Shown here in pieces: positions 622 to 34,312 of a DNA stretch of 35,100 nucleotides. Source of the DNA: Bacteroidota bacterium. Its GTDB lineage: Bacteria > Bacteroidota > Bacteroidia > Chitinophagales > Saprospiraceae. The stretch is from positions 1 through 35,100 of the forward strand of contig JACRAN010000091.1 of the NCBI GenBank assembly GCA_016234735.1, written 5' to 3'. The stretch's first letter is position 1. Every line of letters starts with the position of its first letter. The translations under genes were made by a program, and so were the position numbers. Below the pieces are notes generated by a model, which saw nothing but the letters and a program-made list of their open reading frames with translations, did not search any database and was not told the DNA's origin.

Positions 622-764
622 CGATTTCGGATTTCGGATTTGCGATTTCGGAATAGGTGTTATCAGGATTCAAAGAGAAAAGGGTATGAAGCGTATCGCT
701 TCATACCCTTTTCTCTTTGTGGAAAGCGGGTTCTCCGAAATCCGAAATCTCAAATCCGAAATCG
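622..764. repeat. Word-repeat inverted repeat (GGATTTC type) enclosing the rpoD terminator
   Basis: Two 30-base arms at 622-651 and 735-764 are made of repeated GGATTTC-like heptamers. They are inverted relative to each other: both outer ends read CGATTTCGGATTT inward, and the inner 7 bases also match. The arms start at the base after the rpoD stop and end 5 bases before the stop codon of the convergent minus-strand gene. The 83-base loop contains an independent 23-bp hairpin. The same word occurs at 17915-18020 and 31567-31596. Confidence 0.85.
671..719. terminator. Perfect 23-bp hairpin between convergent genes
   Basis: Bases 671-693 and 697-719 are exact reverse complements (arm ends CAAAGAGAAAAGGG and CCCTTTTCTCTTTG) with a 3-base TAT loop. 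It lies 50 bases after the rpoD stop, in a convergent gap. There is no run of T after the stem, but the pyrimidine-rich descending arm and extreme stability make it a likely bidirectional terminator or 3'-end protecting structure. Confidence 0.75.
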
Positions 765-768
765 TATG

Positions 769-1752
769 TCAATCCAAAATCACCGCCCCGGTGTTGTTGG
801 TTTTGTCACATTCAAATTTGAACTGGTCGGAATCGAGTGAAAGAATCAGGCTTTTCATGTAGCGGGTTTTCTTGCGCACATCGAGCCGCATCCTGCCGGA
901 GTAGGTGTCGCCCGGCAGCAGGTCGCCAGATTGGCCGGACTGTGCTTTCACCATTTGGCCGCCCAGCGGCAGCGCCCCTCTCGACAGCACCGGCACCCCG
1001 GAAATGTAGGCTTTCACCACTAATTTTTCCTCTGAATTGCTCCCTTTTTCAAAGAGTTTAAAAATTCCTTGCCCCTTGTTTTCAATCGTGTATTCAACCG
1101 TGGCCGACTTGTCGTCCTGCTCGACGATGCGGAGTTGGTTGAAAAAAATATCGGGACAGTCCGCCGGGGTATTGGGCGATTCAGCAGAAGGCTGCACAGG
1201 TTCCTCCTCGCCGCCTTTGGCAGCAAATCCGGCCTCAACACTTTCCTTTTCCGCCGGTTCGATGGTGGCAAAACCGGCAGGTTTTTCTTCGGGCTTTCCC
1301 GGTTTTTGGAGAAGCACCACGGGAACTTTCAGTTCCTTGTCCCGTTGGATTTTGCCTGCTGCCAACACAAAATTATCGTCGTACAGCGCCTGCCGGAGAT
1401 TGTCGCGCAGGCCCCCTAATTTATTGTCGAAAAGCGTTGGGTCGAAGTTGATTTGCACCCAATGCTCCGTGCCTTTTTTACTGAAATCCACGTCCATCCG
1501 GCCAGAGTTGATGACCGTGAACCGCACCCTGACCCAATCATCCGTTCGTTTTACCACTTCAAAATTTGTGAGGTCGAGCCGGAAGCCGCGGTATTTGACG
1601 GTATCGTCTGAGGGGTGGGGCGAGAGCTGAGGGGTGAGGGGTGAGGGGTGAGGAATCGGTTGAAAAAAATCGGAGAATGCCAAACCTGCGATGCCTGCGG
1701 CAATGGAAAGCGAGAGGAAAAATATGTTTGCAGGTTTTAGATTCAAAAACAT
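769..1752 (-). CDS. Hypothetical secreted or membrane-anchored protein with two beta-rich domains
   Basis: The protein is 327 residues long. Residues 9-29 (IFFLSLSIAAGIAGLAF region) form a hydrophobic segment that could be a signal peptide or membrane anchor, so the rest would be periplasmic or surface-exposed. A Pro/Ser/His-rich stretch (about residues 32-48) follows; it is encoded by a heptamer word array. Two regions, about 50-150 and 200-327, look like beta-sandwich domains with phrases such as RVRFTVINSGRMDVDF and ATVEYTIENKGQGIFKL, similar in style to CARDB/Ig-like domains. They are joined by a Glu/Pro-rich linker. I do not recognise the family. It lies downstream of the Lrp-like gene on the same strand with a 118-base gap, and converges on rpoD. 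An alternative start inside the hydrophobic segment is unlikely. Confidence 0.7.
   Translation of the reverse strand: MFLNLKPANIFFLSLSIAAGIAGLAFSDFFQPIPHPSPLTPQLSPHPSDDTVKYRGFRLDLTNFEVVKRTDDWVRVRFTVINSGRMDVDFSKKGTEHWVQINFDPTLFDNKLGGLRDNLRQALYDDNFVLAAGKIQRDKELKVPVVLLQKPGKPEEKPAGFATIEPAEKESVEAGFAAKGGEEEPVQPSAESPNTPADCPDIFFNQLRIVEQDDKSATVEYTIENKGQGIFKLFEKGSNSEEKLVVKAYISGVPVLSRGALPLGGQMVKAQSGQSGDLLPGDTYSGRMRLDVRKKTRYMKSLILSLDSDQFKFECDKTNNTGAVILD
1610..1654. repeat. Heptamer array (GAGGGGT type) inside a coding region
   Basis: GAGGGGT-like units are repeated in tandem on the plus strand. The array is within the minus-strand gene 769-1752 and stays in frame, encoding the low-complexity linker HPSPLTPQLSPHPS just after the membrane segment. 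It resembles the intergenic arrays in unit length and G-rich composition, but has only one arm. Confidence 0.6.
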
Positions 1753-1870
1753 AGTCAGGAAACGCTAACTCCGCCCGGTTATTGAGAGGAAACCGGACGG
1801 TATTTTTCACAGAAGACGCCTGCCAGCGCTGCTTCAAAATCGTTTTTAAAAATGGTGGCAGGGCTTCCCT

Positions 1871-2344
1871 TCAAACTTCCTCGTCCGTCAAAATATCGAC
1901 TGGCCGGTTGATGCTTTCCTGAAGGGAAATGAAGGTTTCCGTGCGCTGGATGCCAGCGATTTTCTGGATTTTATCGTGCAGCACATCCCGCAGGTGGTCG
2001 GTGTCCCGGCAGTATATTTTGGCAAAAATGCTGTACAGGCCAGTCGTGTAGTATGCCTCCACCACTTCGGGGATTTTTTTCAACTCCTCGGACACAACGT
2101 CGTACAAGGAACTTTTATCAAGGTAAATGCCGAGGAAGGCGCAAATATCATACCCCAATCGCCCGTGGTCCACCACCAGATTGGCCCCCTGCACGATGCC
2201 CATGTCCCGCAGTTTTTTCATGCGCACATGCACCGTGCCTCCTGACACGTAGCCGATTTTTTTGGCAATGTCGGTGTAGGGCTGCTCCGCATCGGTCATC
2301 AACATGGAGAGGATAAGCTTGTCGGTTTTGTCAATTCCGTTCAT
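1871..2344 (-). CDS. Lrp/AsnC family transcriptional regulator
   Basis: 157 residues, the usual length of the family. The N-terminal winged helix-turn-helix (about residues 4-52) starts with IDKTDKLILSMLMTDA and includes the recognition part GGTVHVRMKKLRDMGIV. The C-terminal RAM/AsnC effector domain (about 65-145) contains VVEAYYTTGLYSIFAKIYC and ends near IQRTETFISLQES, as in family members that sense amino acids and assemble into octamers. Lrp/AsnC proteins repress or activate amino-acid metabolism genes and often their own gene. The effector is not deducible. The neighbouring protease gene is divergent across a 353-base gap that could hold operators; the secreted protein gene 769-1752 follows on the same strand. 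Confidence 0.92.
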   Translation of the reverse strand: MNGIDKTDKLILSMLMTDAEQPYTDIAKKIGYVSGGTVHVRMKKLRDMGIVQGANLVVDHGRLGYDICAFLGIYLDKSSLYDVVSEELKKIPEVVEAYYTTGLYSIFAKIYCRDTDHLRDVLHDKIQKIAGIQRTETFISLQESINRPVDILTDEEV

Positions 2345-2697
2345 AAATCCGGGTTGTGGCCATTGGGCAACGGGGTATTCGGATAGCCCATTGATGGCGT
2401 TTCATTTATTTTCAACAAAAATGCTTTTTTAAGATGATATTTTCAAAATGTGCTGGCGATATTTCCCGTAAATTGAGGATTCTGTAAAACTTTTAACAAA
2501 ACGGCACTGCTCCGTGCCACATTGCCCCCCCATTCCGTGGCCATTGAAGTTTTTTGTTTTCCTTGCAAACTTTAGGTGTGCCTGGTACATTATTATGGTT
2601 TGGCCACGGATTCAAGGCCGAATCCGACAGTTTGGCTTAGTTTTGTGGCAAAATAAATTTGACTCCCCTATCCGTTTCAAATACACTCCAACCCGGC
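2345..2697. other. Divergent intergenic region between the Lrp-like gene and the S41 protease gene
   Basis: This gap of about 350 bases has no convincing gene. It is AT-rich around 2400-2500 (runs such as TTTTTTAAGATGATATTTTC), as expected for a regulatory region. A TAGTTTTG at 2638-2645 fits the Bacteroidota -7 element for the plus-strand protease gene. A small hairpin (GGCAC/GTGCC, 2503-2518) is present. No clear minus-strand promoter was found for the regulator gene. Confidence 0.5.
2638..2645 (+). promoter_or_regulatory. Possible -7 element (TAnnTTTG) for the protease gene
   Basis: TAGTTTTG matches the Bacteroidota -7 consensus and lies 52 bases before the chosen ATG at 2698. No TTG at the right distance upstream (-33) was found, so this is weak. 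If it is real, the in-frame TTG at 2659 would still be transcribed, so it does not settle the start. Confidence 0.25.
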
Positions 2698-4359
2698 ATG
2701 AACAACGACATTTTACAAACGCCGAAAAAGTTAAAAATCTGGCTTCCCCTGCTCTTTTCATTGGTGCTGGTGGGGGGAATGCTGATCGGCACCAGAATGC
2801 AGTCCAACCCGCCAACCGTTGCCGCCATCGACGTGCCCAAAAACGAAGATTTGCCTCCCAGCGCCCTGGGCCAGGGCAAGTTGGAGGAACTCATCCGCTA
2901 CATCGAAGCCCGCTACGTGGACGACGTGAACAAGGACGAACTGGTGAAGGAAGCCATCGACAACATCCTTTACCAACTCGACCCTCACTCCAGCTACATC
3001 TCCGCCGAACAACTCAAGGAAGTGAACGAGCAACTCGAAGGCAGCTTCGACGGCATCGGCATCGAGTTCGTGGTGGTGGACGATACGGTGATGGTGGTGG
3101 CCGCCCTGGCAGGTGGCCCGGCAGAAGGTGCGGGCATCCTCTCCGGTGATAAAATCGTGCAGATTGAAGACTCCCTCACCGTCGGTGAAAATATTAATTA
3201 CGAAGGCATACTGTCAAAACTCAAGGGAGACAAAGGCTCGAAAATCGACATCGGCATTCTGCGGGGTTTGGAAAGAAAACTGCGCCGCTTTACCCTGACC
3301 AGGGACAAGATTTCGGTACACAGCGTCGAAGTCGCCTACATGCTCGACGAGGTGAGCGGCTACATCAAAATCAACCGTTTCAGCGCCAACACCTACGAAG
3401 AGTTCATGAAATCGCTCGAAGACCTCGTTGACAACCAGGGCATGAAGCACCTCGTCATCGACCTGCGCCAAAACCCCGGCGGCTACTTGCAGGAAGCGAC
3501 CAGCATCCTGAGCCAGCTTTTCAAGGAAAAAGACAAACTGCTCGTGTACACGGAGGGCAAAAACGTGCCCCGCAACGACTACAAGTCCACCGGCAGGCCA
3601 TTTTACGAAGTGGGAAACATCGCCGTGCTGACCGACGAAGGCTCGGCCAGCGCCAGTGAAATCGTTGCCGGGGCCATCCAGGACTGGGACCGGGGCATCG
3701 TCATCGGCAGGCGCTCGTTCGGCAAAGGGCTGGTGCAGGAGCAGTACCACCTGCGCGACGGCTCCGCCATCCGCCTGACCGTGGCCCGCTACTTCACGCC
3801 CTCTGGCCGTTGCATCCAAAAACCCTACGAAGGCCGTGAAGATTATGAAGACGATGTGGCCGGGCGCATAAAAAACGGCGAGTTGTACGGCGAAGAAGTT
3901 ATCGAACACGATGATACCACCCGGTACTTCACTAATGGCGGCAGGGTCGTGTACAGTCACGGTGGCATTCAGCCCGATGTGTTCATCCCGCTGGATTCCT
4001 TCCTGCTCAATCCCTACTACATCAAGCTGCACCAACACCTGCCCTCCTTCGCTTTCCGCTACCTTGAAACGAACCGGGCTGACATCGAAAAAACTTCACT
4101 GGTGGACTTTTCAAAAAAATTCACCGTGACGGACGGCGTGGCCAACGAGTTTCTTGATTTTGCGGTGAAACGAGGCGAAAAGCGCAATGGGCGCCAATGG
4201 AAAGCTGTCAAAAATGACATCAAATTAACCCTGAAAGCCTCCATCGCCCGGCACCTCTGGTCAGAAAAAGGCTACTACTACGTGATGAACGAGGACGATG
4301 CTGCCGTAAAAAAAGCGAAACAACTGCTACGGCAAGAGAGGCCGCTGACCTTGAAATGA
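2698..4359 (+). CDS. C-terminal processing peptidase, S41 family (CtpA/Tsp-like)
   Basis: 553 residues from the ATG at 2698. An in-frame TTG 39 bases upstream is possible but would put 13 extra residues before the membrane segment. Residues about 12-33 (LPLLFSLVLVGGMLIG) form an N-terminal anchor, so the protease works in the periplasm. A PDZ domain follows (about 100-195, with FDGIGIEFVVVDDTVMVV and the carboxylate-loop region). The S41 catalytic domain has GSASASE with the likely nucleophile Ser318, and the general base Lys343 in RSFGKGLVQ, 25 residues later as in Tsp/CtpB. YTPSGRCIQ-like and NPGGYL motifs are also present. The C-terminal region (about 400-553) is the longer tail seen in Bacteroidota members. 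Such enzymes degrade or trim periplasmic proteins from the C terminus. The stop overlaps the next start in ATGA. Confidence 0.93.
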   Translation: MNNDILQTPKKLKIWLPLLFSLVLVGGMLIGTRMQSNPPTVAAIDVPKNEDLPPSALGQGKLEELIRYIEARYVDDVNKDELVKEAIDNILYQLDPHSSYISAEQLKEVNEQLEGSFDGIGIEFVVVDDTVMVVAALAGGPAEGAGILSGDKIVQIEDSLTVGENINYEGILSKLKGDKGSKIDIGILRGLERKLRRFTLTRDKISVHSVEVAYMLDEVSGYIKINRFSANTYEEFMKSLEDLVDNQGMKHLVIDLRQNPGGYLQEATSILSQLFKEKDKLLVYTEGKNVPRNDYKSTGRPFYEVGNIAVLTDEGSASASEIVAGAIQDWDRGIVIGRRSFGKGLVQEQYHLRDGSAIRLTVARYFTPSGRCIQKPYEGREDYEDDVAGRIKNGELYGEEVIEHDDTTRYFTNGGRVVYSHGGIQPDVFIPLDSFLLNPYYIKLHQHLPSFAFRYLETNRADIEKTSLVDFSKKFTVTDGVANEFLDFAVKRGEKRNGRQWKAVKNDIKLTLKASIARHLWSEKGYYYVMNEDDAAVKKAKQLLRQERPLTLK

Positions 4360-4688
4360 GCATTTTCACAATGATTGCAAAAACACCACCCCCGCCCTAC
4401 TACGCCGTCATCTTCTCCAGCCTGCGCACCGACGTTGCCGAAGGCTACGCCGAAACCGCCCAACGCATGTTGGAACTGGCTGCGGAGCAACCGGGCTACC
4501 TGGGCGTGGAGGGCGTTCGGGAAGGGCTGGGCATCACCGTTTCCTACTGGGAGAGCCTCGAAGCCATCCGCCACTGGAAGCAGCAAACCGAACACCTCAT
4601 TGCGCAGCAAAAAGGCCGGACGGACTGGTACGCCGCCTACAAAACCCGCATCTGCAAGGTGGAGCGGGACTATGGTTTTGAAAAATGA
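4356..4688 (+). CDS. Antibiotic biosynthesis monooxygenase (ABM) fold protein
   Basis: 110 residues with the dimeric alpha-beta barrel pattern of the ABM family: YYAVIFSSLRTD strand, helix MLELAAEQPGYLGVEG, strand GITVSYWESLEAIRHWK, then a helix with HLIAQQKGRTDWYAAY. The phrases PGYLG and SYW.S.EAI.HWK are hallmarks of the heme-degrading/YgiN-like group found in many Bacteroidota. The actual substrate is unknown; many members are small oxygen- or heme-related enzymes or have lost catalysis. The start ATG overlaps the protease stop by 4 bases, pointing to translational coupling. A second in-frame ATG at 4371 is possible. The functional connection to the protease is unclear. Confidence 0.85.
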   Translation: MSIFTMIAKTPPPPYYAVIFSSLRTDVAEGYAETAQRMLELAAEQPGYLGVEGVREGLGITVSYWESLEAIRHWKQQTEHLIAQQKGRTDWYAAYKTRICKVERDYGFEK

Positions 4689-4770
4689 AAAAATGAAGCC
4701 TGCCTGTCAGCACCCTCTCCGTTTTCTTTCCTAAATTCCGCCGTTTTTCATCCTTTTTTTAAAAAAAAAC

Positions 4771-5952
4771 ATGAGCAACGGCAAAATCTCCCGCAAGCAA
4801 TTTCTCAAGACTTTCGGCGCAATGGGCGCTGGCGCGATATTGGCGCCCATCATCGGCAAGGCCGAGGGGCTTCATTTCACAGACCGCAAAATCAAAGTCG
4901 GCATCATTGGTTGCGGCAGCGTGAGCAACATGTACCTGCCACACCTCAGCAAGTCGCCCTACGTGGAGCTGGTCAGCGCCTGCGACATCATCCACGAACG
5001 GGCCATCAAGCAGGCTGAGAAGTTCAAAGTGCCAAACCACTACCCACACATCGACCAGATGCTGGCTGGGGCGCCTTTCGACCTGCTGGTGAACACCACC
5101 GACATGCAGGAGCATGGCCGCCTCAACCAACTGGCGCTCAACGCAGGCCGCCATGTCTGGAGCGAAAAACCCATGGCCAACAGCTACAAGGAAGGCCGGG
5201 CGCTGCTCGATTTTGCCATCTCCAAAAACCTGCGGCTTTGGGGCGCACCTGCCGTGGTCAACAGCCCACAGTTTGCCTTCATGGCCAAGGCGCTCAACGA
5301 GGGCAAGCTGGGCAAAATGGCTGCCGCCCACGCCCACTACGGCCATACCGGGCCGGGCTGGTCGGCATTTTTTTATGAAAAAAACGGGGGAAGCCTCCCC
5401 GACCTCGGTGTGTACAACATCGCCACCCTCACCGGGCTGCTCGGCCCGGCCCTGGCCGTGACGGCCATGACGAGCATCGTGACCCCGGAGCGCACGGTGG
5501 ACAACAAGGGCAAAATCAAGGTGGAGGCTGAGGACAATGCCATGCTGCTGATGGACCACGGCAACGGTGTGCTCTCGCACGTGCAGTGCGGCTTCAACTA
5601 CTTCGACCCCTTCGGCCACGAGGGCAGTGGACAGGACCGCCCGACCATCCTGCTCTGGGGCACGCAGGGCAACATGGCCATGATTGGCTACGACTGGGCA
5701 CCCTTCGGCGTCCACCTCGCCAACGACTGGGACAAACCGGAAGGCGAGCGCTTCGTGCCCGACCCCGGCGACTACGTCTGGCAGCAGGGCGCATCGGTCA
5801 TCGCCGAGAGCCTCGTGAGCGGCACCGAGCCGCTCATCGCTGCCGAACATGCGCTGCATGTGCTGGAAATCATCGAGGCAACCCGCAAATCCGGCAAAAG
5901 CGGCAAGCGGGTGATGTTGAAGTCGAAGTTTAAGTTTCCGGTAGTGAAATAA
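4771..5952 (+). CDS. Tat-exported Gfo/Idh/MocA family oxidoreductase
   Basis: 393 residues. The N terminus has a twin-arginine-like signal with RK in place of RR (SRKQFLKTFGAMGAGAI), so export of the folded, cofactor-loaded enzyme is likely. The Rossmann domain begins about residue 41 with VGIIGCGSVSNMYLPHL (GxGxxx nucleotide-binding loop). The family motif EKPMANSYKEG follows at about 131, with the Lys that usually takes part in catalysis. The C-terminal alpha/beta domain includes GGSLPDLGVYNI, where the conserved Asp and nearby His of the family are expected. Members oxidise sugars, sugar acids or inositols with NAD(P), or act as glycosidases by an oxidation mechanism. The substrate here is not deducible. 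The homopolymer T/A tract just before the ATG stands in for a ribosome binding site. An amidohydrolase gene follows. Confidence 0.92.
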   Translation: MSNGKISRKQFLKTFGAMGAGAILAPIIGKAEGLHFTDRKIKVGIIGCGSVSNMYLPHLSKSPYVELVSACDIIHERAIKQAEKFKVPNHYPHIDQMLAGAPFDLLVNTTDMQEHGRLNQLALNAGRHVWSEKPMANSYKEGRALLDFAISKNLRLWGAPAVVNSPQFAFMAKALNEGKLGKMAAAHAHYGHTGPGWSAFFYEKNGGSLPDLGVYNIATLTGLLGPALAVTAMTSIVTPERTVDNKGKIKVEAEDNAMLLMDHGNGVLSHVQCGFNYFDPFGHEGSGQDRPTILLWGTQGNMAMIGYDWAPFGVHLANDWDKPEGERFVPDPGDYVWQQGASVIAESLVSGTEPLIAAEHALHVLEIIEATRKSGKSGKRVMLKSKFKFPVVK

Positions 5953-5955
5953 GTT

Positions 5956-6022
5956 GGTATTGGGAATTAGGTATTGGGTATTGCGAGATGCCCCAATACC
6001 CAATTTCCAATACCCAATTTCC
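5956..6022. repeat. Word-repeat inverted repeat (GGGTATT/GGGAATT type)
   Basis: The left arm 5956-5983 consists of GGTATTGGGAATTAGG-like units. The right arm 5993-6022 is its inverted counterpart (CCAATACCCAATTTCC-like units). The loop is about 9 bases, so the transcript could form a long hairpin between two plus-strand genes. The array starts 4 bases after one gene and ends 8 bases before the next start. It creates a spurious ATG at 5988 that extends the downstream frame. Confidence 0.8.
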
Positions 6023-6029
6023 ATTCCCC

Positions 6030-8490: not shown

Positions 8491-8558
8491 GGTTGACGAG
8501 GGTTGATAAAAAGTTGATAAATATCTCGTTATCAACCAACTATCAACCCTCATCAACC
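8491..8558. repeat. Inverted repeat built from GGTTGATAA-like words between korA and korB
   Basis: Arms of 30 bases at 8491-8520 and 8529-8558 are complementary except for a few positions (both carry GAGGGTTGATA and GTTGATAA in the same order). The loop is 8 bases. Further GTTGATAA-type copies extend the right side to 8570, the base before the korA stop codon. The repeating unit here is about 10 bases rather than 7. In the korAB transcript it would be a stable intercistronic stem. Confidence 0.85.
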
Positions 8559-14392: not shown

Positions 14393-16858
14393 ATGATGAA
14401 TGTAGCTCGGATTTTTGTGCTATCGATACTTGTCCATTCACTGCAAGCACAGCCCCTCCCCGTCTGCACCACCCCCGCCAACGGCTCGGCGTGGACGTAC
14501 CTCGGCCCCGTCAGCCCGCCCACGCCTGGGCCGGGCGCAGGCATGGGCAGCACCGGCACGGGGGCGCAGGTTCGGGTCAAGTTTTTTGACCCGAAAGCCA
14601 CCAACCCGACCGAACTGTACGCCGCCACCCCCACCGGCGGACTCTTCCGTACCCGCAACGTGCTCGACTCGGTGCCCGTCTGGGAGAACCTCACCGACAG
14701 CACCCGCCTGCCTGTGCTGGGGGTGCGGGACTTTGAGTTCGAGCCGGGCAACCCCGACGTGATGTACCTCGGCACGGGCATCCGCTACCCGCTCGACCTG
14801 CGCCGGGCCTACGGCATTGGCCTGCTGAAAACCACCGACGACGGGCGTTCCTGGCAGCCGACTGGCCTCACGTTCGAGCCGCCCGGTTCGATGGCGGAGG
14901 TCGTCCACGACATCCTCGTGCATCCGCAAAACCCCGACACCTTGCACGTCCTCAGCGGAAAAAACTACTACCGGTCCGACGACGGCGGTGCCAGTTTTAC
15001 CCTGAAAAATACCAACCCGCACCCCTGCCCTGCCGGTTGGGAAAGCGCCTGGCGGGCCATTCTCACCAAACCGGGCAGTCCGCAGGTGCTGTACCTGACC
15101 GCCGATGCTGGCTATTTTTTTATTTCAAAAAACAGCGGGGAAACCTGGGCGGAAATCGCCGTGGACAGCAGCCTCGGCATCACCGAGCCGGTCATGCGCA
15201 TGGACGTGGCCGTGTCGGAACACAACCCTGAATTGATTTACCTCGGTTGCTCGGCGCAAAAAAACGAGTTCATCCTCCGCTCGCTCGACGGCGGAGCGAG
15301 TTGGCAGTTGGTGTTGAAAAAAAACCTCGGCTCCAGCTACGAGAAGCACGTTTTTGCCATTTCACCCAACGGCGACAACGTGCTGTACGCAGGCGGGCTG
15401 TACGTGCATCAGGTGACGATTTCCCAGGATGGCAAGGCCACGAGCAAACAAATTGCGGGCAGCGAAATCCACATGGACCACCGCGAACTCTGCGTGGTGA
15501 GCGACGGCAACGGCGGCGACATCCTCTACTCGGCCAACGACGGCGGGCTGTACCGGGGCGTTGTTGACGGTAAAAAATGGCGCTGGCGGGACGTGTCCGG
15601 TCTGGGTTTCAACAACATGCAGTTCTACGGGATTGCGGTGGCCGAGGATTTTTCGGTGGTGCCCGGCGGTACGCAGGACCTCGGCACGATGCTGATTTAC
15701 CGGGACGAAAAAGCCGTGAAGCCCAACCTCGGCGGCGACGGCACCGATTGCGCCGTTGACCCCTTCAACCCCGCCAACATTTTCAGCATCTCCTGGGCGC
15801 TCGGCCCGCCCGTCATTTTCCGCTCCACCGACGGCGGCGTGAGGTGGAGCCGCTGGAACAAGGGCACGGTGGCCAACGGCGACAGCTACTACCACCCCAT
15901 GATTTTCCATGAAAACGGCTACCTCTACACCGGCACCACGAAGGTGCAGCGGCTGCCCTACGGCTCGGACACCTGGCAGCAAATCGGCGACATCCACCTG
16001 CCGACAGACAACCCCTGGCGCGTGACGGCCATGTCGGTGGCCATGCCCGGTGGCGAAGTGATTTACGCCTACGGCGACCAGCTCTACCGCACCGACGATG
16101 CCAACGCCGATTCGGCCGTGTGGCAGCCGTTGGGAGAGAAAATGGGTGATGCCGCCAAGTTCCGAAGGGGCAGCGGCGTGATGTTGGCGGTGGAAACCGA
16201 CCCCGCCAATCCCCGCAAAGTCTGGGTGAGTTTCAAAACTTTCGACTCGCCGTTCAAAGTCTGGTTTTCCGGCGACGGTGGCGAAACGTGGGGCAGCACG
16301 GGGCCAGGGCTGCCGCCTTTCCCGGTGAGCGCGTTGGCCTTCCAGGCTGGCACCGCCGACGTGCTGTACGCTGGCACCGACGTGGGCGTGTTCGTGAATT
16401 TCAACGCCTCCGACCCCAATTCCGAGTGGCAGTGTTTCAACAGCGGCCTGCCGGTGTGCCTCGTGTCCGATTTGGAAATGAACTACTGCCAGGGAAAAAT
16501 CGTGGCGGGCACGTTCGGGCGGGGCATCTGGGAGTCGCCGCTGGCGCTGCCGTCCGATTTCAAAACCATCGAAGTCGACCGGGATGCGGTGTGGGATTTC
16601 ATGCTCCTCCGCTCCGATGTGGTGGTAAAAAAAGGCACAACGCTCACGCTGCGAGGCGAAATCCGCATCGCCTCCGGCAAAAAAATTGTCGTTGAAAAAG
16701 ATGCCGTGCTGGTGCTGGATGGCGCTCATTTGGCCGACCTTTGCGGCGAACCCTGGGCGGGCATTGTGACGGAGCAGGGCAACAGCGGGTTTCTCGGCCT
16801 GTTTTTTGGCACTGACCCCGGCAAAGTTGAACTAAAAAACAGGGCAACGGTGGACTGA
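14393..16858 (+). CDS. Secreted BNR/sortilin-type beta-propeller protein
   Basis: 821 residues with an N-terminal signal peptide (IFVLSILVHSLQAQ, cleavage about residue 20). Many BNR/Asp-box units (S/T-x-D-G-G-x-x-W) are visible: TDDGRSWQP, SDDGGASFTL, SKNSGETWAE, SLDGGASWQL, STDGGVRWSRW, SGDGGETWGS. With NPDVMYLGTG and ADVLYAGTDVG blades they indicate one or two beta-propellers of the VPS10/sortilin type found in secreted glycosidases and adhesins. No glycosidase catalytic set was recognised. The last about 110 residues form a short beta-helix-like segment (GTTLTLRGEIRIASGKKIVVEKDAVLV region, split here over several strands), ending KNRATVD. Such proteins usually end in a T9SS sorting domain, which is missing, so the protein may be shortened. 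Two ATGs (14393, 14396) are adjacent; either may be used. Confidence 0.85.
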   Translation: MMNVARIFVLSILVHSLQAQPLPVCTTPANGSAWTYLGPVSPPTPGPGAGMGSTGTGAQVRVKFFDPKATNPTELYAATPTGGLFRTRNVLDSVPVWENLTDSTRLPVLGVRDFEFEPGNPDVMYLGTGIRYPLDLRRAYGIGLLKTTDDGRSWQPTGLTFEPPGSMAEVVHDILVHPQNPDTLHVLSGKNYYRSDDGGASFTLKNTNPHPCPAGWESAWRAILTKPGSPQVLYLTADAGYFFISKNSGETWAEIAVDSSLGITEPVMRMDVAVSEHNPELIYLGCSAQKNEFILRSLDGGASWQLVLKKNLGSSYEKHVFAISPNGDNVLYAGGLYVHQVTISQDGKATSKQIAGSEIHMDHRELCVVSDGNGGDILYSANDGGLYRGVVDGKKWRWRDVSGLGFNNMQFYGIAVAEDFSVVPGGTQDLGTMLIYRDEKAVKPNLGGDGTDCAVDPFNPANIFSISWALGPPVIFRSTDGGVRWSRWNKGTVANGDSYYHPMIFHENGYLYTGTTKVQRLPYGSDTWQQIGDIHLPTDNPWRVTAMSVAMPGGEVIYAYGDQLYRTDDANADSAVWQPLGEKMGDAAKFRRGSGVMLAVETDPANPRKVWVSFKTFDSPFKVWFSGDGGETWGSTGPGLPPFPVSALAFQAGTADVLYAGTDVGVFVNFNASDPNSEWQCFNSGLPVCLVSDLEMNYCQGKIVAGTFGRGIWESPLALPSDFKTIEVDRDAVWDFMLLRSDVVVKKGTTLTLRGEIRIASGKKIVVEKDAVLVLDGAHLADLCGEPWAGIVTEQGNSGFLGLFFGTDPGKVELKNRATVD

Positions 16859-16870
16859 GGTATGAGGTAT
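16857..16870. repeat. Two GAGGTAT heptamers at the end of the BNR gene
   Basis: GAGGTATGAGGTAT overlaps the last base or two of the TGA stop of the BNR gene. It is the same heptamer that forms the inverted repeat at 32599-32698, here as a single short arm with no inverted partner nearby. Confidence 0.5.
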
Positions 16871-16929: not shown

Positions 16930-17916
16930 ATGAAAACGAACCTCTTGCTCTTGCTGCTCACGCTCACAACCCTGGCGCAGGCGCAGCACAGCTACCTCTC
17001 CGACCGCCGTTTTTTCACAGCGGACGAACTGATTGGCTACGACTTCAAACCCGCCGTGAAGGAGATTCCCAACGAAAAAAAGGAAGACCTCGACCCCGGC
17101 GAATATTCCTTCGGCATCACCCACACCAACCTCTACGTGAAGGGCGAGGGCATCGAGGGCGTTTACAACATCAACAACATGCAACCGGAGGACTACGGCT
17201 TCAAACTGACGCTGATGAACGCCCGTGATGCCCGTTTGCAAGGCCATTTGAAAGTCATCCTGAACAAATACGGCATGGTGGAGACGTTGATTTTCAAACG
17301 CTCGCCCACCGACAAGGAGTTGATTTTTTACCAGGCGGCCATCCCCGGCAAGATCAACGAACAGGAGAAGGCGTATTTCACCGACCGGGGCGAGAAGGCC
17401 ATCGCAACGCCGGATTCACTTTGGGGGCAAAAAATCCATCCCTTCCTCCGCATCCACACCGAAGCGAAAGTGCAGGAACGCCTGCGGATGCGGGACAGCA
17501 CGAGCATCAGTTTCGTCGAAGAAATCACCATCGTGGAAAAAGACGTGAAAAAGAAAAAGAAACCACAGACCGACGTGGTGGAGGCCCTGCCGACCGATTC
17601 GTTGGTGCTGGATTCGACCGTTGTGGTGGCGGACAGCGCTGCTGCCGACAAAAAAGTGAAAATCACCAAGGAACACTTCGTGGTGGTGCGTTCCATCGTG
17701 CAGTTCGAGGACGGGATGCGGGAGGACAAGACCTGGAAGTACCCGGTGAAGCGGGTCACGGAGAAGGAAGACAAGCAGGCCGCCTTGCAGGAGGAGCGCT
17801 ACCAGTGGGAGTTTGTGAACGATAAAAAGGAAAACATCATCCTGTACCTCAACGGCGACCATACGGTGAGCACCATGATCATTGCCGACAAAACGTACCT
17901 GATGCGGGGGTTTTAG
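16930..17916 (+). CDS. Secreted hypothetical protein
   Basis: 328 residues with a signal peptide (LLLLLLTLTTLAQAQ, cleavage about residue 19). The mature part is hydrophilic and mixed alpha/beta. It has a Lys-rich linker (KDVKKKKKPQ, about 204-213) and an Ala/Asp/Val-rich segment before the C-terminal domain, which includes HFVVVRSIVQFEDGMRED and ends YLNGDHTVSTMIIADKTYLM. It looks like a gliding/outer-membrane-associated protein of Bacteroidota, though I cannot name the family. TAATTTTG at 16915-16922 fits the -7 consensus, but no -33 element lies at the right distance; transcription from it would begin almost at the ATG. It follows the BNR gene at 71 bases on the same strand. Confidence 0.75.
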   Translation: MKTNLLLLLLTLTTLAQAQHSYLSDRRFFTADELIGYDFKPAVKEIPNEKKEDLDPGEYSFGITHTNLYVKGEGIEGVYNINNMQPEDYGFKLTLMNARDARLQGHLKVILNKYGMVETLIFKRSPTDKELIFYQAAIPGKINEQEKAYFTDRGEKAIATPDSLWGQKIHPFLRIHTEAKVQERLRMRDSTSISFVEEITIVEKDVKKKKKPQTDVVEALPTDSLVLDSTVVVADSAAADKKVKITKEHFVVVRSIVQFEDGMREDKTWKYPVKRVTEKEDKQAALQEERYQWEFVNDKKENIILYLNGDHTVSTMIIADKTYLMRGF

Positions 17917-18020
17917 GATTTCGGATTCCTTGATTTCCGATTGCGGATTCAGGTTGATTGACGAACAAGACCGTAAGTTTGCACCCTGAATCCGAAATCC
18001 GTAATCCCCAATCCGAAATT
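17915..18020. repeat. Word-repeat inverted repeat (GGATTTC/GGATTCC type) with a promoter in its loop
   Basis: The left arm 17915-17953 has GGATTTCGGATTCC-like words. The right arm 17985-18020 has the complementary words (CCTGAATCCGAAATCC...). The inner 9 bases pair exactly (GGATTCAGG 17945-17953 with CCTGAATCC 17985-17993). The left arm begins in the stop codon of the preceding gene and the right arm ends 5 bases before the metF-like start. The loop holds TAAGTTTG. Confidence 0.8.
17954..17981 (+). promoter_or_regulatory. Candidate promoter of the metF-like gene, inside the repeat loop
   Basis: TAAGTTTG (17974-17981) is an exact TAnnTTTG. TTG at 17954-17956 gives a spacer of 17, slightly short. 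Transcription would start about 17988, placing the right repeat arm in the leader of the metF-like mRNA. Confidence 0.4.
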
Positions 18021-23444: not shown

Positions 23445-24887
23445 ATGACGGAACTGCTGCAACAAGCCTACGACCCCGAACACTTCCGCCGGGAAGGCCA
23501 CCGCCTCGTGGACCTGCTGGCCGACTACCTCACCAACATCCGTCGAGGCGATTCGCCCGAAAAAGTGCTGCACTACGTGGACCCCAACGAACTCTACGAG
23601 CGCTGGCAGGCCGACCTCGCCGGGGCACCCCACCGGGATTTGGGCGGTTTTTTTGAAAAAATACTGCACGACACGATGCACATGCACCACCCGAAGTACC
23701 TGGGCCACCAGACCTCGAACGTGGCTCCACCTGCCGCCCTCGCCGAACTGATCGGCGGGCTGCTCGACCCCGGCATGGGCGTGTACGAGCAGGGCACGTC
23801 GGGCGTGGCGCTCGAACGGCTGCTGGTGAAGGAACTCGGAAAAATCATGCACTGGGGCGACGGCACGGAGGGCTATTTGACCTCCGGCGGCACCCTCGGC
23901 AACCTCACGGCGCTGCTCTGCGCCCGCCAGGTGATGGTGGAAAACGATGTGTGGAAGAATGGTTTTCAGGGAAAACAGTACGCTTTTTTGGTCTCGTCCG
24001 AGGCCCACTACTCGGTGGCGAGGGCGGTGCAGGTGATGGGCATGGGCAAGCGGGGCGTGGTGCAAGTGCCTGTTAATCAACGGTTTCAGATGCGTACCGA
24101 CCAATTGGAGGCGTGTTTTCAGCAGGCGGCGGACGAGGGCGTGACCGTCATCGGGGTGGTGGCCAGCTCCTGCTCCACCGCCACTGGCAGCTTCGACCCC
24201 TTGGCCGACATCGCCGATTTTTGCGAAGCGAAAAAACTCTGGCTGCATGTGGACGGGGCGCACGGCGGCTGTGCGCTTTTCTCTAAAAAATACCGCTCCC
24301 TGCTCGACGGCATTGAGCGGGCGGACAGCATGATCCTCGACTTCCACAAAATGCTGATGACCCCAAAACTTGTCACTGCCGTCGCCTTCCGGCGGGGCGA
24401 GCATTCGTACCAGACCTTCACCCAGAAGGCATCGTACATGTGGGATTCGGACGAGGGACGGGAGTGGTTCAACCTCGCCAAACGCACGTTTGAACTCACC
24501 AAAAGTTTCATGAGCGTGCGGGTGTACGCCCTCTGGCGCACCTACGGCCCGGCGCTTTTCGGGGAGTACGTCGAGCAGCAGTTCGACTTGGGGAAAACCT
24601 TCGCCCGGCTCCTCGCAGCAGCCGGGGACTTTGAAATGCCGGTGGCCGAGCCGGAATGCAACATCCTATGTTTCAGGTACTTGCAACCAGGTTGGAGCGA
24701 GGAGAAAGCCGACCGGGTGAACGCCGCCATCCGGGAGCGACTGGTGCGGGAGGGCGAGTTTTTCATCGTGCAGACGAGGTTGCAGGGCAAACTTTACCTC
24801 CGCACGACGCTGATGAACCCACACACGACGGAGCGGGAATTGGTGGTGGTGCTGGAACGAATCCGGGTATTGGGAATTGGGAATTAG
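23445..24887 (+). CDS. Group II pyridoxal phosphate-dependent amino acid decarboxylase
   Basis: 480 residues from the ATG at 23445 ([18 protein letters not shown]), preceded by an A-rich run; an in-frame GTG at 23415 is less likely. Marks of the group II (aromatic-L-amino acid/glutamate/cysteine-sulfinate/aspartate) decarboxylases: [35 protein letters not shown] (phosphate region), [16 protein letters not shown] with the ring-stacking His, HVDGAHGG with Asp270 (pyridine nitrogen), and [10 protein letters not shown] with Lys302 as the Schiff-base lysine. It removes the alpha-carboxylate of an amino acid in the cytoplasm; which one is not clear from the sequence. The last residues (RVLGIGN) and the TAG stop are encoded inside a heptamer word array, so the natural C terminus may have been altered by the repeat. 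Confidence 0.93.
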
Positions 24888-24975
24888 GTATTGGAATTGG
24901 GAATTGGGAATTGGGAATTGGGAATTGGGTATTTTTCAGTTGCCAATTCCAAATACCTAATTCCCAATACCCAAT
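24865..24975. repeat. Word-repeat inverted repeat (GGGAATT type), the longest array in the window
   Basis: The left arm 24865-24931 has about nine tandem GGGAATT/GGGTATT/AGGTATT heptamers. The right arm 24943-24975 has the inverted words (CCAATTCC, ACCTAATTCCCAATACCC). The loop is about 11 bases (TTTTTCAGTTG). The left arm contains the stop codon of the decarboxylase gene and its last codons; the right arm touches the stop of the convergent small gene. The same words form 5956-6022. Confidence 0.9.
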
Positions 24976-25313
24976 CACCACCTCAACTCCTCGTCCACCC
25001 CCTCCGACGGCTGGCTGCCGTAGAATTTTTTGGTGGCGAGCCGCTGGCGCTGGCGGTCCATGACGAGTTTGGCGAGGGCGATATTGGCAGGGTCAGGGTT
25101 GCCGGGCGAGAGGGCATCGTGGATTTTGGTTTCGGACACGTCGTTGCGGTAGAGGAGGCTGAGGAGGTACTCCATGTTGTGCTCGATGAGCCAGGAGATT
25201 CGGTCGCAGAGGGCCTGGAAAATTTCGGCTTCGGAAGGTGCCCCTCCTTCGGTCGAAGCAAGTTCGAAGTCCTTGATAATGAGTTCGTTAGCTGCGGTTT
25301 GAGCGTCGTTCAT
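24975..25313 (-). CDS. Small hypothetical protein next to the GH3-like gene
   Basis: 112 residues, acidic and mostly helical by inspection ([40 protein letters not shown]). No signal peptide or membrane segment, so likely cytoplasmic. I do not recognise a named family, though the style is that of short conserved Bacteroidota proteins. Its start lies 11 bases after the stop of the GH3-like gene on the same strand, so they probably form one operon with this gene second. Its TGA stop is at the edge of the GGGAATT repeat. Confidence 0.75.
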
Positions 25314-29999: not shown

Positions 30000-30035
30000 C
30001 TGATTTCAAGTACGCTTTTGTTCTTCAAACACTGT

Positions 30036-31562: not shown

Positions 31563-31566
31563 GTTT

Positions 31567-31596
31567 CGATTTCGGATTTCGGATGTCGGATTTCGG
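31567..31596. repeat. Single-arm GGATTTC word array in the purH leader
   Basis: Four or so GGATTTC/GGATGTC heptamers lie 4 bases before the purH ATG, within the leader predicted from the promoter at 31667-31697. The words equal those of 622-764 and 17915-18020, but no inverted partner arm was found nearby. Confidence 0.7.
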
Positions 31597-31666
31597 TTGA
31601 AAATCTGGCATCCAAAATGGTTGGCAAACTGATTTTATGAAAAAAGTGGTTTTCGTCGGGAGGGCG

Positions 31667-31697
31667 CAAATGTAGTGTGTTTGCAGGCAGTGACAAA
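31667..31697 (-). promoter_or_regulatory. Bacteroidota-type promoter of purH
   Basis: On the minus strand TTTG (31697-31694), a spacer of 19 bases, then TACATTTG (31674-31667) fully match TTTG-N19-TAnnTTTG. The leader would be about 98 bases and would contain the GGATTTC word array. Confidence 0.65.
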
Positions 31698-31954
31698 AAA
31701 GCAGCGTGTCAAATCAGGCAAGTTGCAGGAAAAAAACGGCGGATCAGAAACCTGACTTTTGGGATAGTTTGGTTGGTCGGAAACCTTTGCCCACGCTTAC
31801 TTTGTCCTTGTAGAAAGCAATTTTTGAAAGCTGATATTTCAGATTAGACATTTCACCCCAAACAACCACACGCTCGCACCTTTTTTCCTTCTTTTTTTTG
31901 ACTCCAATGTTTAGCTGTGAAAACTTTGGGACTATTTCATACAGGATTTCGGCG

Positions 31955-31988
31955 GCCCACTGACGCACATCAGTGGGCTGTTTTTTTT
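31955..31988 (+). terminator. Rho-independent terminator on the plus strand with no plus-strand gene upstream
   Basis: GCCCACTGA (31955-31963) and TCAGTGGGC (31970-31978) form a 9-bp stem with loop CGCACA, followed by TG and eight T (31981-31988). On the minus strand there is no T run after the stem. The stem overlaps the last codons and stop of the minus-strand HAD gene. Confidence 0.7.
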
Positions 31989-32593
31989 AGGTCAAAAATG
32001 CCCAAAGCATCCAATTCCTGCCGTAATTGATCCGGTGACTGAAAATGGATGCACTTCATGCCGAGGTTTTGCGCCGCCACCACATTGCGGTAATTATCGT
32101 CGATGAACACCGCCCGCTGCGGCTCCACGTGGTAGCGGTCGAGCAGGATTTGATAAAAATCGGGAAACGGCTTCCTCGTTTTTTCCTCGCCGCTCACCAC
32201 GATGCCGCCGAACCAGTGCAGGAAATCGAACGTCTCAAGCGCCATCGGGAAGGTCTCCGCCGACCAGTTGGTGAGGGCGTAGAGGCGGTGCGATCCGGTA
32301 TTTTTGATGCTCCGCAAAATGTCCACCGTGTCGTGGATGGCACCGCCGAGCATCTCCTGCCAGCGCCCGTAGTAGGCCCTGATTTCGGTTTCCCATTCGG
32401 GATGTTGCGCCAGCAGCAGGTCGGTGGCTTCCTGGGTGGGGCGCCCTGCGTCCTGTTCCTCGTTCCAGTCGAGCGAGCAGATGTTTTTGTAAAAAAATTG
32501 CTTGCGGGCAGGGTCATCAAATAATTTATCGAAAACATAGTCCGGGTTCCAATCAATGAGGACGCCGCCGAGGTCGAAGATGATGGTATCCAT
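31970..32593 (-). CDS. HAD-superfamily hydrolase, subfamily IA (phosphatase-like)
   Basis: 207 residues from the ATG at 32593 (MDTIIFDLGGVLIDWNP). A longer open frame upstream runs through the repeat and the neighbouring gene and is not used. Motif I is FDLGGVLIDW with the nucleophile Asp. Motif II is ALTNWSAET (Thr), motif III is around EEKTRKPFPDFYQILLDRY (Lys), and motif IV is AVFIDDNYRN. The helical cap follows motif I. The set fits HAD-IA (epoxide-hydrolase/haloacid or sugar-phosphate phosphatase-like) proteins, with the substrate unknown. The last codons lie within the terminator stem at 31955-31978. A -7-like TACATTTG at 32646-32639 lies in the loop of the repeat just upstream. Confidence 0.9.
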   Translation of the reverse strand: MDTIIFDLGGVLIDWNPDYVFDKLFDDPARKQFFYKNICSLDWNEEQDAGRPTQEATDLLLAQHPEWETEIRAYYGRWQEMLGGAIHDTVDILRSIKNTGSHRLYALTNWSAETFPMALETFDFLHWFGGIVVSGEEKTRKPFPDFYQILLDRYHVEPQRAVFIDDNYRNVVAAQNLGMKCIHFQSPDQLRQELDALGIFDLKKTAH

Positions 32594-32598
32594 GAATA

Positions 32599-32698
32599 TG
32601 AGGTGAGAGGTATGAGGTTTGAGGTATTTTGTGAGGCGCAAATGTAAAAGAAAAATTTGCCAACCTGCTTTGCAATACCTCAAACCTCTCACCTCATC
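32599..32698. repeat. Word-repeat inverted repeat (GAGGTAT/GAGGTTT type) with -7 element in its loop
   Basis: The left arm 32599-32629 has ATGAGGTGAGAGGT and GAGGTTTGAGGTATT. The right arm 32673-32698 has the inverted words (AATACCTCAAACCTCTCACC). The left arm has one extra GAGGTAT. The right arm contains the end (MR and TGA stop) of the aminopeptidase gene; the left arm lies 6 bases before the HAD gene start. Confidence 0.85.
32639..32646 (-). promoter_or_regulatory. Possible -7 element of the HAD gene inside the repeat loop
   Basis: TACATTTG (32646-32639, minus strand) equals the -7 element of the purH promoter and is followed by the same GCGCC. A good -33 TTG at 19-20 bases is not present, so the promoter is weak or incomplete. 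Transcription would begin about 32632, putting the left repeat arm in the leader. Confidence 0.3.
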
Positions 32699-34080
32699 CC
32701 TCTCAACGCCTCCACCTCCGCCACCGTTTTCGGCACAGGTTTGCCGAGTACCTGATGACCGGTTTCCGTCACCAGCACGTTGTCTTCGGTGCGGATGCCG
32801 CCGAACGTGCGCCAGTTTTTCAGCGCCGAGTAGTTGATGAAGTCGGTGAATTTGCCCTCGGCCTGCCACTGGTCGATGAGTTCCGGGATGAAGTAGAGAC
32901 CCGGTTCCACCGTCAGCACGAAGCCCGGCTCCAGCGCCCGGCCCAGCCGCAGGTAGGCCGTGCCGAATTGCGTACTGCGCTGAACCTCCCCCGAATATCC
33001 CACGAAATCTTCCCCCAAATCTTCCATGTCGTGTACGTCGAGGCCAATCATGTGGCCGAGGCCGTGCGGGAAAAACAGCGCATGAGCGCCCTGCGCCACC
33101 GCTTCGTCGAGGTCGCCCTGCATCAGGCCGAGCGACTTCAGTCCCTCCGCCATGCGGCGGGCGGCGGCGAGGTGAACGTCACGGTAAGCCAGCCCAGGCC
33201 GGAGCGATTCGATGGCGCTCACCTCGGCATCGAGCACGATGTTGTAGATGTCACGCTGCCGGTCGGTGAATTTTTTGTCCACCGGGCAGGTGCGGGTGAG
33301 GTCTCCGGCGTAGTGCATGGCCGTTTCGGCACCGTGGTCGCCGAGCAGCAGTTGGCCGCTTTGCAGGGTGTTGTAGTGGTGGTGGTTGTGCAGCACCTGG
33401 CCGTTGATGGAGAGGATGATGCCATAGGACAGCGCCCCGCCCATGCCGGTGGCGATCCCTGCGGCAATGCCCGCCAGTTCCGCCTCTTTTTTGCCGGCGG
33501 CAGCAGCCCGCATCACGGCCACGTGCATGGCCCCGCTGATGTTCACGGCTTTTTCCATTTCCACAATTTCCTCCGCCGACTTGTGCGAGCGCTGCGCCAC
33601 GATGGCCCGGATCAGCACTTCCGAGGCATTTTCTTTCAGCTTCGCAACGGGCTGGCCGAACATTTCCGACAACAAAATCATGTTGTCGTGGCGGTACGGC
33701 GGGGTGAAATGCACTGGCCGTTTTTGCGCAAGCGCCTTTTTTACGAAGTCGCCTAACTCGTTGAAAGGCAGCGTTTTAGCCACGCCAACCTGTGCCGCCT
33801 GCTCCGCAATGGTAGGCTGCGGCCCCGTCCACACGACATCCTCCATCGTGAGTTCGTCGCCGAAGATGGTGTCCTCGTTGGCATCCACATCGAGCACGGC
33901 AGCGAGGCCGGGCTGGTCAAGGCCGAAGAAGTACAGGAAGTTGCTGTCCTGCCGGAAGTGGTAGGTGTTGGCGCGGTAGTTCATCGGCGCTTCGTTGTTG
34001 CCGGGGATGACGATGAGGCCGCTGCCCAGGTCCTTGCGGAGGCGGTCACGGCGGGTGGCGTAGGTGGATGGTGGAAACAT
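32689..34080 (-). CDS. pepP: Xaa-Pro aminopeptidase (M24B, PepP-like)
   Basis: 463 residues, close to E. coli PepP (about 440). The N-terminal creatinase-like domain (about 1-170) includes GLIVIPGNNEAPMNYRAN and FYFFGLDQ-type strands (FLYFFGLDQPGLAAVLDVD here). The catalytic pita-bread domain has LLGDHGAE and HYAGDLTRTCP (two metal-binding Asp), HGLGHMIGLDVHD (metal His), VLTVEPGLYFIP (Glu) and GGIRTEDNVLVTE (second Glu), the full set for two metal ions. It removes N-terminal residues before proline in the cytoplasm. A candidate promoter lies at 34197-34226, so the 12-mer array 34099-34189 would be in the leader. The C-terminal residues LRGMR and the stop are in the GAGGT repeat arm. Confidence 0.95.
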   Translation of the reverse strand: MFPPSTYATRRDRLRKDLGSGLIVIPGNNEAPMNYRANTYHFRQDSNFLYFFGLDQPGLAAVLDVDANEDTIFGDELTMEDVVWTGPQPTIAEQAAQVGVAKTLPFNELGDFVKKALAQKRPVHFTPPYRHDNMILLSEMFGQPVAKLKENASEVLIRAIVAQRSHKSAEEIVEMEKAVNISGAMHVAVMRAAAAGKKEAELAGIAAGIATGMGGALSYGIILSINGQVLHNHHHYNTLQSGQLLLGDHGAETAMHYAGDLTRTCPVDKKFTDRQRDIYNIVLDAEVSAIESLRPGLAYRDVHLAAARRMAEGLKSLGLMQGDLDEAVAQGAHALFFPHGLGHMIGLDVHDMEDLGEDFVGYSGEVQRSTQFGTAYLRLGRALEPGFVLTVEPGLYFIPELIDQWQAEGKFTDFINYSALKNWRTFGGIRTEDNVLVTETGHQVLGKPVPKTVAEVEALRGMR

Positions 34081-34098
34081 CGTTTCAGCTTTATGAAA

Positions 34099-34189
34099 AA
34101 TAGGTTACTGAATAGGTTACTGAATAGGTTACTGAATAGGTTACTGAATAGGTTACTGAATAGGTTACTGAATAGGTTACTGAATAGGT
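34099..34189. repeat. Tandem array of a 12-base unit (AATAGGTTACTG), seven copies plus a partial copy
   Basis: Seven exact units AATAGGTTACTG start at 34099, 34111, 34123, 34135, 34147, 34159 and 34171, followed by a partial AATAGGT. The array has no spacers and no dyad symmetry, so it is a simple tandem repeat, not CRISPR. It lies 18 bases upstream of the pepP start, in the likely leader. Confidence 0.95.
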
Positions 34190-34312
34190 CTAAGAGCAAA
34201 TTAATTAAGCAGTAAAATGTTTACAACAAATTGATTATCAATTAATTAATCTTAAAAATTTTATTCATTTTTACAGATTTGCTCTTAGATCTACTCTTAG
34301 ATTTACTCTTAG
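34190..34312. repeat. Inverted repeat with three tandem 12-mers (ATYTRCTCTTAG)
   Basis: CTAAGAGCAAAT (34190-34201) is the exact inverse of ATTTGCTCTTAG (34277-34288). The right side continues with two further variants of that 12-mer, ATCTACTCTTAG (34289-34300) and ATTTACTCTTAG (34301-34312). The 75-base AT-rich loop holds a candidate pepP promoter. Confidence 0.85.
34197..34226 (-). promoter_or_regulatory. Candidate pepP promoter within the inverted-repeat loop
   Basis: On the minus strand TTG (34226-34224) and TTAATTTG (34204-34197, one mismatch to TAnnTTTG) are separated by 19 bases. The leader of about 110 bases would hold the seven 12-mers, complementary to AATAGGTTACTG. Confidence 0.35.

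Follow-up and report, generated by a model that had tools for sequence, protein, structure and literature searches.

Heptad hairpins in a Saprospiraceae genome: a many-worded class of inverted repeats with arms probably matched through template switching

A stretch of 35,100 nucleotides from a Bacteroidota bacterium of the Saprospiraceae (assembly GCA_016234735.1, contig JACRAN010000091.1, here contig C352 of a genome of 4.88 Mb in 359 contigs), referred to below as the window, contains inverted repeats whose arms are tandem arrays of seven-base words. Analysis of this window, of a sample of the genome and of related genomes indicated that these "heptad hairpins" belong to a many-worded class, and we infer that template switching in hairpins is the most likely reason why their arms stay matched. 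Both arms were found to differ in word at the same site in different species, even within enzyme genes; this suggests a process of DNA copying and not a fixed regulatory signal. Short tandemly repeated repetitive sequences of Cyanobacteria are heptamer arrays located in gaps between genes, and several phyla are known to have heptamer repeats; we know of no accepted origin for them.

Five gaps were traced through 14 genomes of the genus (labelled G###). This comparison, a check named beforehand in an earlier note made from the window sequence (the original prediction), revealed that both arms differ jointly in word at several orthologous sites. In the Gfo-amidohydrolase gap, with six orthologues, arms of GGTATTG/GGAATTA were found in G000 and G009, GTGATTC in G007, GGTGATTAGTGACT in G012 and GGAAATT in G006, with a different palindrome in G013. 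In the sigma-factor gap (13 loci) the arms consisted of GGATTTC in G000, GATTTAC in G013 and GCGGATT/GGATTTC in G001, and were decayed in G009; a 35-nt core of the loop could be aligned in all four, though the arms differ. G001 and G013 are sisters (100% support, about 0.03 substitutions per site over two proteins). The other nine loci showed, by eye, mostly a hairpin without heptad arms.

The gap between two subunit genes of a pyruvate:ferredoxin-type oxidoreductase (PFOR) was read in 13 of the 14 genomes: six species had arms of GGTTGAT type, G008 had a GGTTGAA variant, and some hairpin, differing in sequence, was present in most of the 13. The MTHFR gap (14 loci) carried arms of GGATTTC type on both sides in four species, with the promoter-like core kept; in G007 the left arm was GGATT and the right array was C-rich but different, and G006 had a left array only. 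For the APP gap (13 loci, neighbour located in seven) the arms were compared in three species and were weak in two.

An arm-swap test was performed on 23 sequences pooled from the five gaps. Arms complemented their own partners better than partners swapped between species (19.1 versus 15.0, permutation p = 5e-5), and the own arm was the best partner in 13 of 23 rows and 12 of 23 columns. The advantage was carried by the PFOR, sigma-factor and Gfo gaps.

Seven of the 44 heptad pairs identified in the genome sample described below were located inside called genes (L010 and L011 sit at a gene edge and may be miscalled). Five were in open reading frames (ORFs) with Pfam domains, four of them within a domain match (Table 1). 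These five pairs are open in the frame of the gene and encode peptides such as ISDCGLRIS...NPKSEIRN; four of the encoded peptides had no match in the open-licence literature of PubMed Central.

The E1 dehydrogenase gene was compared in 13 species, the partial sequence of G006 being excluded. A hairpin was present in six, with scores of 24-28 versus shuffle maxima of 10-13, and its dialect was GGGAATT in G000 and G009, GATTTAC in G001, G013 and G012, and GGATTGC in G007. Among the remaining species, G004 had only a C-rich right array and six had the native loop. In the six hairpin-bearing loops own arms scored 19.3 versus 11.5 for swapped arms. The dialects do not track the tree, some nodes of which are weak (52 and 57%): G007 and G012 are sisters with different words, and GATTTAC is found in two subclades. 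Matched DNA arms are useless to a protein; the matched arms inside genes therefore favour a process at the DNA level, without singling out any one.

For the flavin mononucleotide (FMN) oxidoreductase gene, 11 species were compared. Clear heptad hairpins of one dialect were found in G000, G012 and G006 and none in five species; the hairpin of G004 was partial and merely equalled its shuffle maximum, G007 had a one-sided array and G001 a non-heptad palindrome. Escherichia coli FadH (1ps9) has a shorter loop at the position of the hairpin. In G009 (contig C56, 8505-10400) the gene matches in three pieces, with a stop in the hairpin region.

The abundance of the class was estimated from 60 stretches picked by contig number, not by content, which together with the window gave 61 sequences and 746,357 bases, or 15% of the genome (labels L### denote single stretches). 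Chance level was taken from two dinucleotide shuffles of the sample. At a score of at least 14, 139 inverted repeats were counted versus 0 and 1 after shuffling, so that enrichment, also a check named in advance, was far above chance. Period-7 arrays numbered 74 versus 0 at a score of at least 12, and 111 versus 1 and 3 at a score of at least 10; arrays of other periods, at the former threshold, numbered 62 (period 14), 23 (21), 20 (8) and 14 (16). Heptad-periodic arms were present in at least 44 of the 139 inverted repeats, a number that depends on the threshold adopted (0.5 at lag 7 or 14) and comes from a scan that undercounts: it kept three of the five heptad pairs of the window (5956, 24869 and 32598), the pair at 622 being masked by its own inner hairpin and that at 17915 falling below score 14. 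Extrapolation from 44 in 746 kb would give about 290 heptad pairs or more in the genome. A search with GGGAATTGGGAATTGGG, allowing two mismatches, yielded 233 matches in the genome and none for the reversed control.

The words of 69 intergenic arrays with both neighbours known fell into 17 clusters, the largest being GATTTCG (14), GGAATTG (12) and GATTTAC (11), and those of the 44 heptad pairs into 14. The words form a shared vocabulary, because clusters recur across loci. The original prediction had described words that change from locus to locus: many words do exist, but they recur as families across loci and species, and "locus-specific" was an overstatement for 14-17 recurring clusters. 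The same number of clusters agrees with its statement that the class does not share one repetitive extragenic palindromic (REP) consensus genome-wide. That both arms of a locus share the word was borne out: in 13 of 14 same-gap array pairs a G-rich array was followed by a C-rich one, and in 12 of these 13 the words matched within one mismatch, versus 10.3% for arrays drawn from different gaps.

The heptad pairs have a marked polarity: 41 of the 44 are G-first, one is C-first and two are tied. By gap type, G-first pairs made up 20 of 21 in co-directional gaps (one tied), 7 of 7 in convergent and 4 of 4 in divergent gaps. The lone C-first pair (L126, 429-575) lies at a contig end and has a 91-base loop. 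Samples of 13 relatives contained 18 heptad pairs, in eight of them, with 17 G-first, none C-first and one tied. No significant bias was found for the remaining 95 inverted repeats of the sample (51 G-first, 36 C-first, 8 tied). Arrays without a partner obeyed the inward rule more weakly (47 inward and 22 outward of 69, p = 0.004), and the G-rich strand of arrays tended to point away from the nearest gene edge. Among pairs with period 8 and similar periods, those of GGTTTGAG are G-first, and the ACACAGAGG type was found in both polarities.

Gaps hold the majority of heptad pairs (28 of 44 between co-directional or convergent genes, four between divergent ones), and period-7 arrays are over-represented there, with 26 of 111 in called genes at a coding fraction of 0.79 (the gene caller was home-made and gene starts are approximate). 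The description of the repeats as intergenic thus applies to the majority, but not to these 26 arrays nor to the five heptad pairs in ORFs with Pfam domains.

In the window, the inverted-repeat search detected pairs at 621-765, 5951-6019, 8491-8558, 17907-18009, 24865-24980 and 32598-32702. Tandem Repeats Finder (TRF) reported paired period-7 arrays at 623-652/734-763, 5956-5983/5992-6018, 17912-17949/17989-18019 and 24865-24933/24943-24975, an array at 32597-32627 with period 7 whose partner, 32677-32705, was given with period 14, and two single period-7 arrays (Table 1). The two methods together confirmed inverted pairs of short tandem words in the window, with exceptions. The repeat at 8491-8558 is an inverted pair, but its arms are irregular (best lag 11) and not heptad. 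At 16857-16870, proposed as a single-arm copy, two copies of the word are present, but at the TRF minimum score, and membership is doubtful. Paired arrays had also been proposed at 34190-34312, where the 12-mer tandem stands only on the right; on the left a single partial copy adjoins an array of another 12-mer (34099-34189), which TRF gave as 7.6 perfect copies of AATAGGTTACTG. The loop of the 17912 pair holds a promoter-like site at 17974-17981; TAnnTTTG is a Bacteroidota promoter consensus.

Table 1. Features of the window and heptad pairs inside coding sequence
Sequence	Feature	Position	Strand	Context	Basis
Window	Left arm, word GATTTCG	622-652	+	Immediately 3' of sigma-factor stop codon	Inverted-repeat search, TRF, gene calls
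Window	Loop core, perfect 23-bp hairpin, terminator-like in appearance	671-719		Between arms of sigma-factor gap	
Window	Right arm, word GATTTCG on opposite strand	734-764	-	Ends at stop of convergent gene	Inverted-repeat search, TRF
Window	Single array, GAGGGGT	1609-1653	+		TRF
Window	Left arm, GGTATTG/GGAATTA	5956-5983	+	Begins 3 nt past stop codon	Inverted-repeat search, TRF
Window	Right arm of 5956 pair	5992-6023	-	Directly ahead of next start	Inverted-repeat search, TRF
Window	Left arm, irregular GGTTGAT words, non-heptad	8491-8520	+	Between two PFOR subunit genes	
Window	Right arm of GGTTGAT pair	8529-8558	-		Inverted-repeat search
Window	GAGGTAT, two copies, doubtful member	16857-16870	+	Overlaps stop codon	At TRF minimum score
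Window	Left arm, GGATTTC-type	17912-17956	+	Overlaps stop codon	Inverted-repeat search, TRF, relatives compared
Window	Promoter-like TAAGTTTG	17974-17981	+	In loop; kept in G009, G001, G013	Judged by eye
Window	Right arm of 17912 pair	17982-18020	-	Precedes MTHFR start	Inverted-repeat search, TRF
Window	Left arm, ten units GGGAATT/GGGTATT	24865-24933	+	Extends into end of called gene	TRF
Window	Right arm of 24865 pair	24943-24975	-	Reaches stop of convergent gene	TRF
Window	Single array, GGATTTC-type	31564-31596	+	Adjoins start of AICARFT/IMPCHase gene	TRF, gene calls
Window	Left arm, TATGAGG words	32597-32627	+		Inverted-repeat search, TRF
Window	Right arm of 32597 pair	32674-32705	-	Overlaps aminopeptidase stop	Inverted-repeat search, TRF
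Window	12-mer array, one-sided, excluded from members	34282-34312			TRF
L008	Heptad pair			Within Pyr_redox_2 match, FMN oxidoreductase	
L021	Heptad pair			Within response-regulator domain	
L118	Heptad pair			Within HATPase_c	
L145	Heptad pair			Within E1_dh	
L132	Heptad pair			Among FG-GAP repeats	

To a combination of arm-to-arm template switching and slippage, with some families copied between loci, we assign about an even chance of being correct. During replication an array and its partner would form a hairpin in single-stranded DNA; slippage would alter the number of words, and template switching would use one arm to rewrite the other, spreading to both a word that had arisen or arrived in one. 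Some families additionally spread between loci as copies. Hairpins would persist where the sequence is little constrained: just past stop codons, just ahead of starts and in protein loops that vary. They would require no general host function, although single copies may have been co-opted. Template switching has been described as a route to the creation and maintenance of hairpins (PMC8794818).

Several observations weigh against this explanation. The own arms of the MTHFR and APP gaps were no better than swapped ones, and the 23 arm-bearing sequences of the swap test were chosen by eye out of 60 loci. The FMN oxidoreductase gene shows insertion and not word change, since its heptad-bearing species share one dialect. 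A fixed irregular arm present at many loci (see below) would fit the copying of ready-made units. Template switching leaves the inward G-rich polarity unexplained. The idea that arms are copied or corrected together, already put forward in the original prediction, is thus supported by shared words and by joint arm differences between species at several orthologous sites, but no single arm-copying event could be reconstructed. We give a lower probability to a stronger version, replication-coupled arm rewriting, in which the site and sometimes the loop would be kept and the word quickly replaced in both arms, in gaps as well as in frame in conserved enzymes, the polarity, shared with Xanthomonas, being a signature of the copying machinery across phyla.

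The hairpins could also be ready-made mobile units: several families of miniature elements resembling REPINs or Rickettsia palindromic elements would insert whole, and different words would represent separate insertions into tolerant spots, with no arm conversion. This possibility, which we consider rather unlikely, draws on families with fixed arms. An irregular 33-nt arm, GTTGGCAGTTCGACAGTGGGCAGTTGGCAGTC, had 23 matches across loci and species in the samples of this genome and its relatives, with seven pairs in the right order and none in the wrong one; three copies have a common 21-nt loop (two of three loop comparisons exceeded the 99% shuffle level), and other copies have different loops, one of them a terminator. 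The GATTACATGATT arm recurs at two loci of G000 and also in G004 and G010. Copying between loci therefore occurs, and one arm type brackets different cores. Orthologous enzyme loops carrying different repeat types would likewise agree with separate insertions, but enclosure of unrelated loops by the same arm type and conservation of loop cores between arms of different words would not. No transposase was found for the heptad hairpins among the two Y1_Tnp genes of the genome: the strong match (L304) is flanked by another inverted repeat and no heptad array, and heptad and octad repeats lie 0.4-1 kb from the weak one (L305). The repeat adjoining the strong, RAYT-type match (988-1077) is a 33-bp perfect inverted repeat and likely its cognate REP.

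Selection on RNA hairpins that stabilise mRNA 3' ends or tune the expression of neighbouring genes, with the stem selected and slippage renewing its sequence, would account for the 28 pairs in co-directional or convergent gaps and for the PFOR gap, where most of the species read have some hairpin, of varying sequence. It would not account for the pairs in Pfam-domain ORFs or for an enzyme gene in which the arms match in six species, and on balance it appears improbable.

G-quadruplex formation has been proposed for the heptamers of Xanthomonas and Nostoc (PMC4692102). GGG words such as GGGAATT would be capable of it, and the rules of position and polarity agree with those in that report, but the motif (four G-tracts of three with short loops) was detected in only 4 of 44 heptad pairs, and we consider a quadruplex element very improbable here. 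Just as remote is the proposal of ordinary intrinsic terminators or of a single REP family. Some loops do contain a terminator (window 671-719; L015), and a fixed REP-like family, CCGTTCCATCGGAACGGTATCT (CCGTTCC...GGAACGG), coexists with the heptad hairpins, with 14 hits in the sample (for example L007 3973-4026, L012 15384-15437 and L022 10082-10135). However, a T-run at the stem base was present in 2 of 44 heptad pairs versus 20 of 95 other inverted repeats (p = 0.012), leaving the suggested terminator role unsupported; the REP tags GTAG (5 of 44) and CGTC (3 of 44) showed no enrichment at the stem base over the other repeats (9 and 9 of 95); and one family does not fit 14-17 word clusters. 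Neither terminators, REP tags nor quadruplexes account for the class, and the genic copies, the rare T-runs and the rare quadruplex motifs argue against a terminator or a quadruplex as its general role.

No Rfam family reached its gathering score in the window. Promoter-like sites in consensus scans were near shuffled counts; terminator-like sites numbered 46 versus 30.1 (standard deviation 5.4) in one half and 24 versus 20.3 (standard deviation 4.3) in the other, and no promoter- or terminator-like consensus site was noticed at heptad arms in the scan lists. G-rich heptamers on inward strands had suggested a telomere-like origin, which was discarded since the words vary within a single genome.

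The original prediction had cited the cyanobacterial heptamers as a loose precedent, lacking paired inverted arms. Two Xanthomonas genomes contain 70 and 75 convergent inverted pairs of GGGAATC repeats (PMC4692102), and the P6b hairpin of the Nostoc trnL intron consists of pairing degenerate heptanucleotide repeats (PMC3488679); paired heptamer arms therefore have precedents. In period, place, pairing and polarity the class is similar to the Xanthomonas heptamers; in entering genes it is similar to Rickettsia palindromic elements. Xanthomonas GGGAATC and Nostoc PCC 7120 GGGGA(T/C)T repeats share the heptamer unit, the intergenic bias and the polarity, the G-rich strand being the sense strand close to stops and the antisense strand close to starts, and Xanthomonas shares the convergent inverted pairs. 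Their sites are reported to be kept in gene context with varying length, and each genome has essentially one quadruplex-forming word (PMC4692102); here there are many words, quadruplex motifs are rare, and, unlike in that description, both arms of orthologous sites differ in word. The Nostoc P6b hairpin likewise has two word classes at one site, but is a single intronic locus (PMC3488679), whereas hundreds of sites are extrapolated here.

Rickettsia palindromic elements are also palindromic, in frame in unrelated genes and of several families; likened here by description, they are about 150 bp long with a family consensus and a conserved peptide (PMC10969869), in contrast to heptad arms with changing words. 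REP and REPIN sequences with REP-associated tyrosine transposases (RAYTs) are similarly dispersed; PMC3733652 describes them as frequently forming inverted pairs and as located chiefly downstream of genes, with some genic. The present class differs in showing no GTAG/CGTC enrichment, arms that are not self-palindromic and no demonstrated RAYT link. TAACTGA repeats of Beggiatoaceae, Cyanobacteria and Bacteroidetes are likewise intergenic heptamers with species-specific turnover, and some Bacteroidetes have mixed heptamer assemblages; they are reported as direct repeats, the main genome of that account having 169 sets and a single indirect repeat (PMC4679880).

A scan for GGKRATT arrays returned at least 80 loci, which among the matches listed were mostly from Cyanobacteria, with Xanthomonadaceae, Chloroflexi and Bacteroidales. 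Paired arms had been expected in Cyanobacteria, but with GGKRATT words, and with taxa assigned from record titles, an inverted partner was found by score in just 2 of 61 cyanobacterial arrays, in 4 of 7 from Xanthomonadaceae and in 0 of 15 others; three of the six (L154, L225 and the first in L219) were without a clear partner in the inspected stretch. With up to two mismatches, GGGAATTGGGAATTGGG occurred 2 to 63 times in each of 13 species of the genus. Other words are used by relatives, for example GGGAAGT in G014 and G033. In the phylum 186 of 395 genomes matched GGGAATTGGGAATTGGG, many with one to three matches, and the reversed control also matched many genomes; the class must therefore be sought by period and not by a single word. 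The control, GGGTTAAGGGTTAAGGG, was abundant in G378 (94) and G138 (34), where another heptad word is in use.

The genus offers orthologous sites with both arms differing, once around a kept loop and once in frame in an enzyme gene. Such sites help to separate RNA selection from DNA copying and make the origin of heptamer repeats testable, and the genic heptad hairpins illustrate one way in which enzyme loops acquire new peptide segments.

The sample also contained an inverted repeat with arms of nearly 120 bases separated by 30 bases (L122, 7346-7613). Pairs with period 8 and similar periods were observed at L126 224-298, L134 60-135, L118 4677-4736 and L124 3386-3464.

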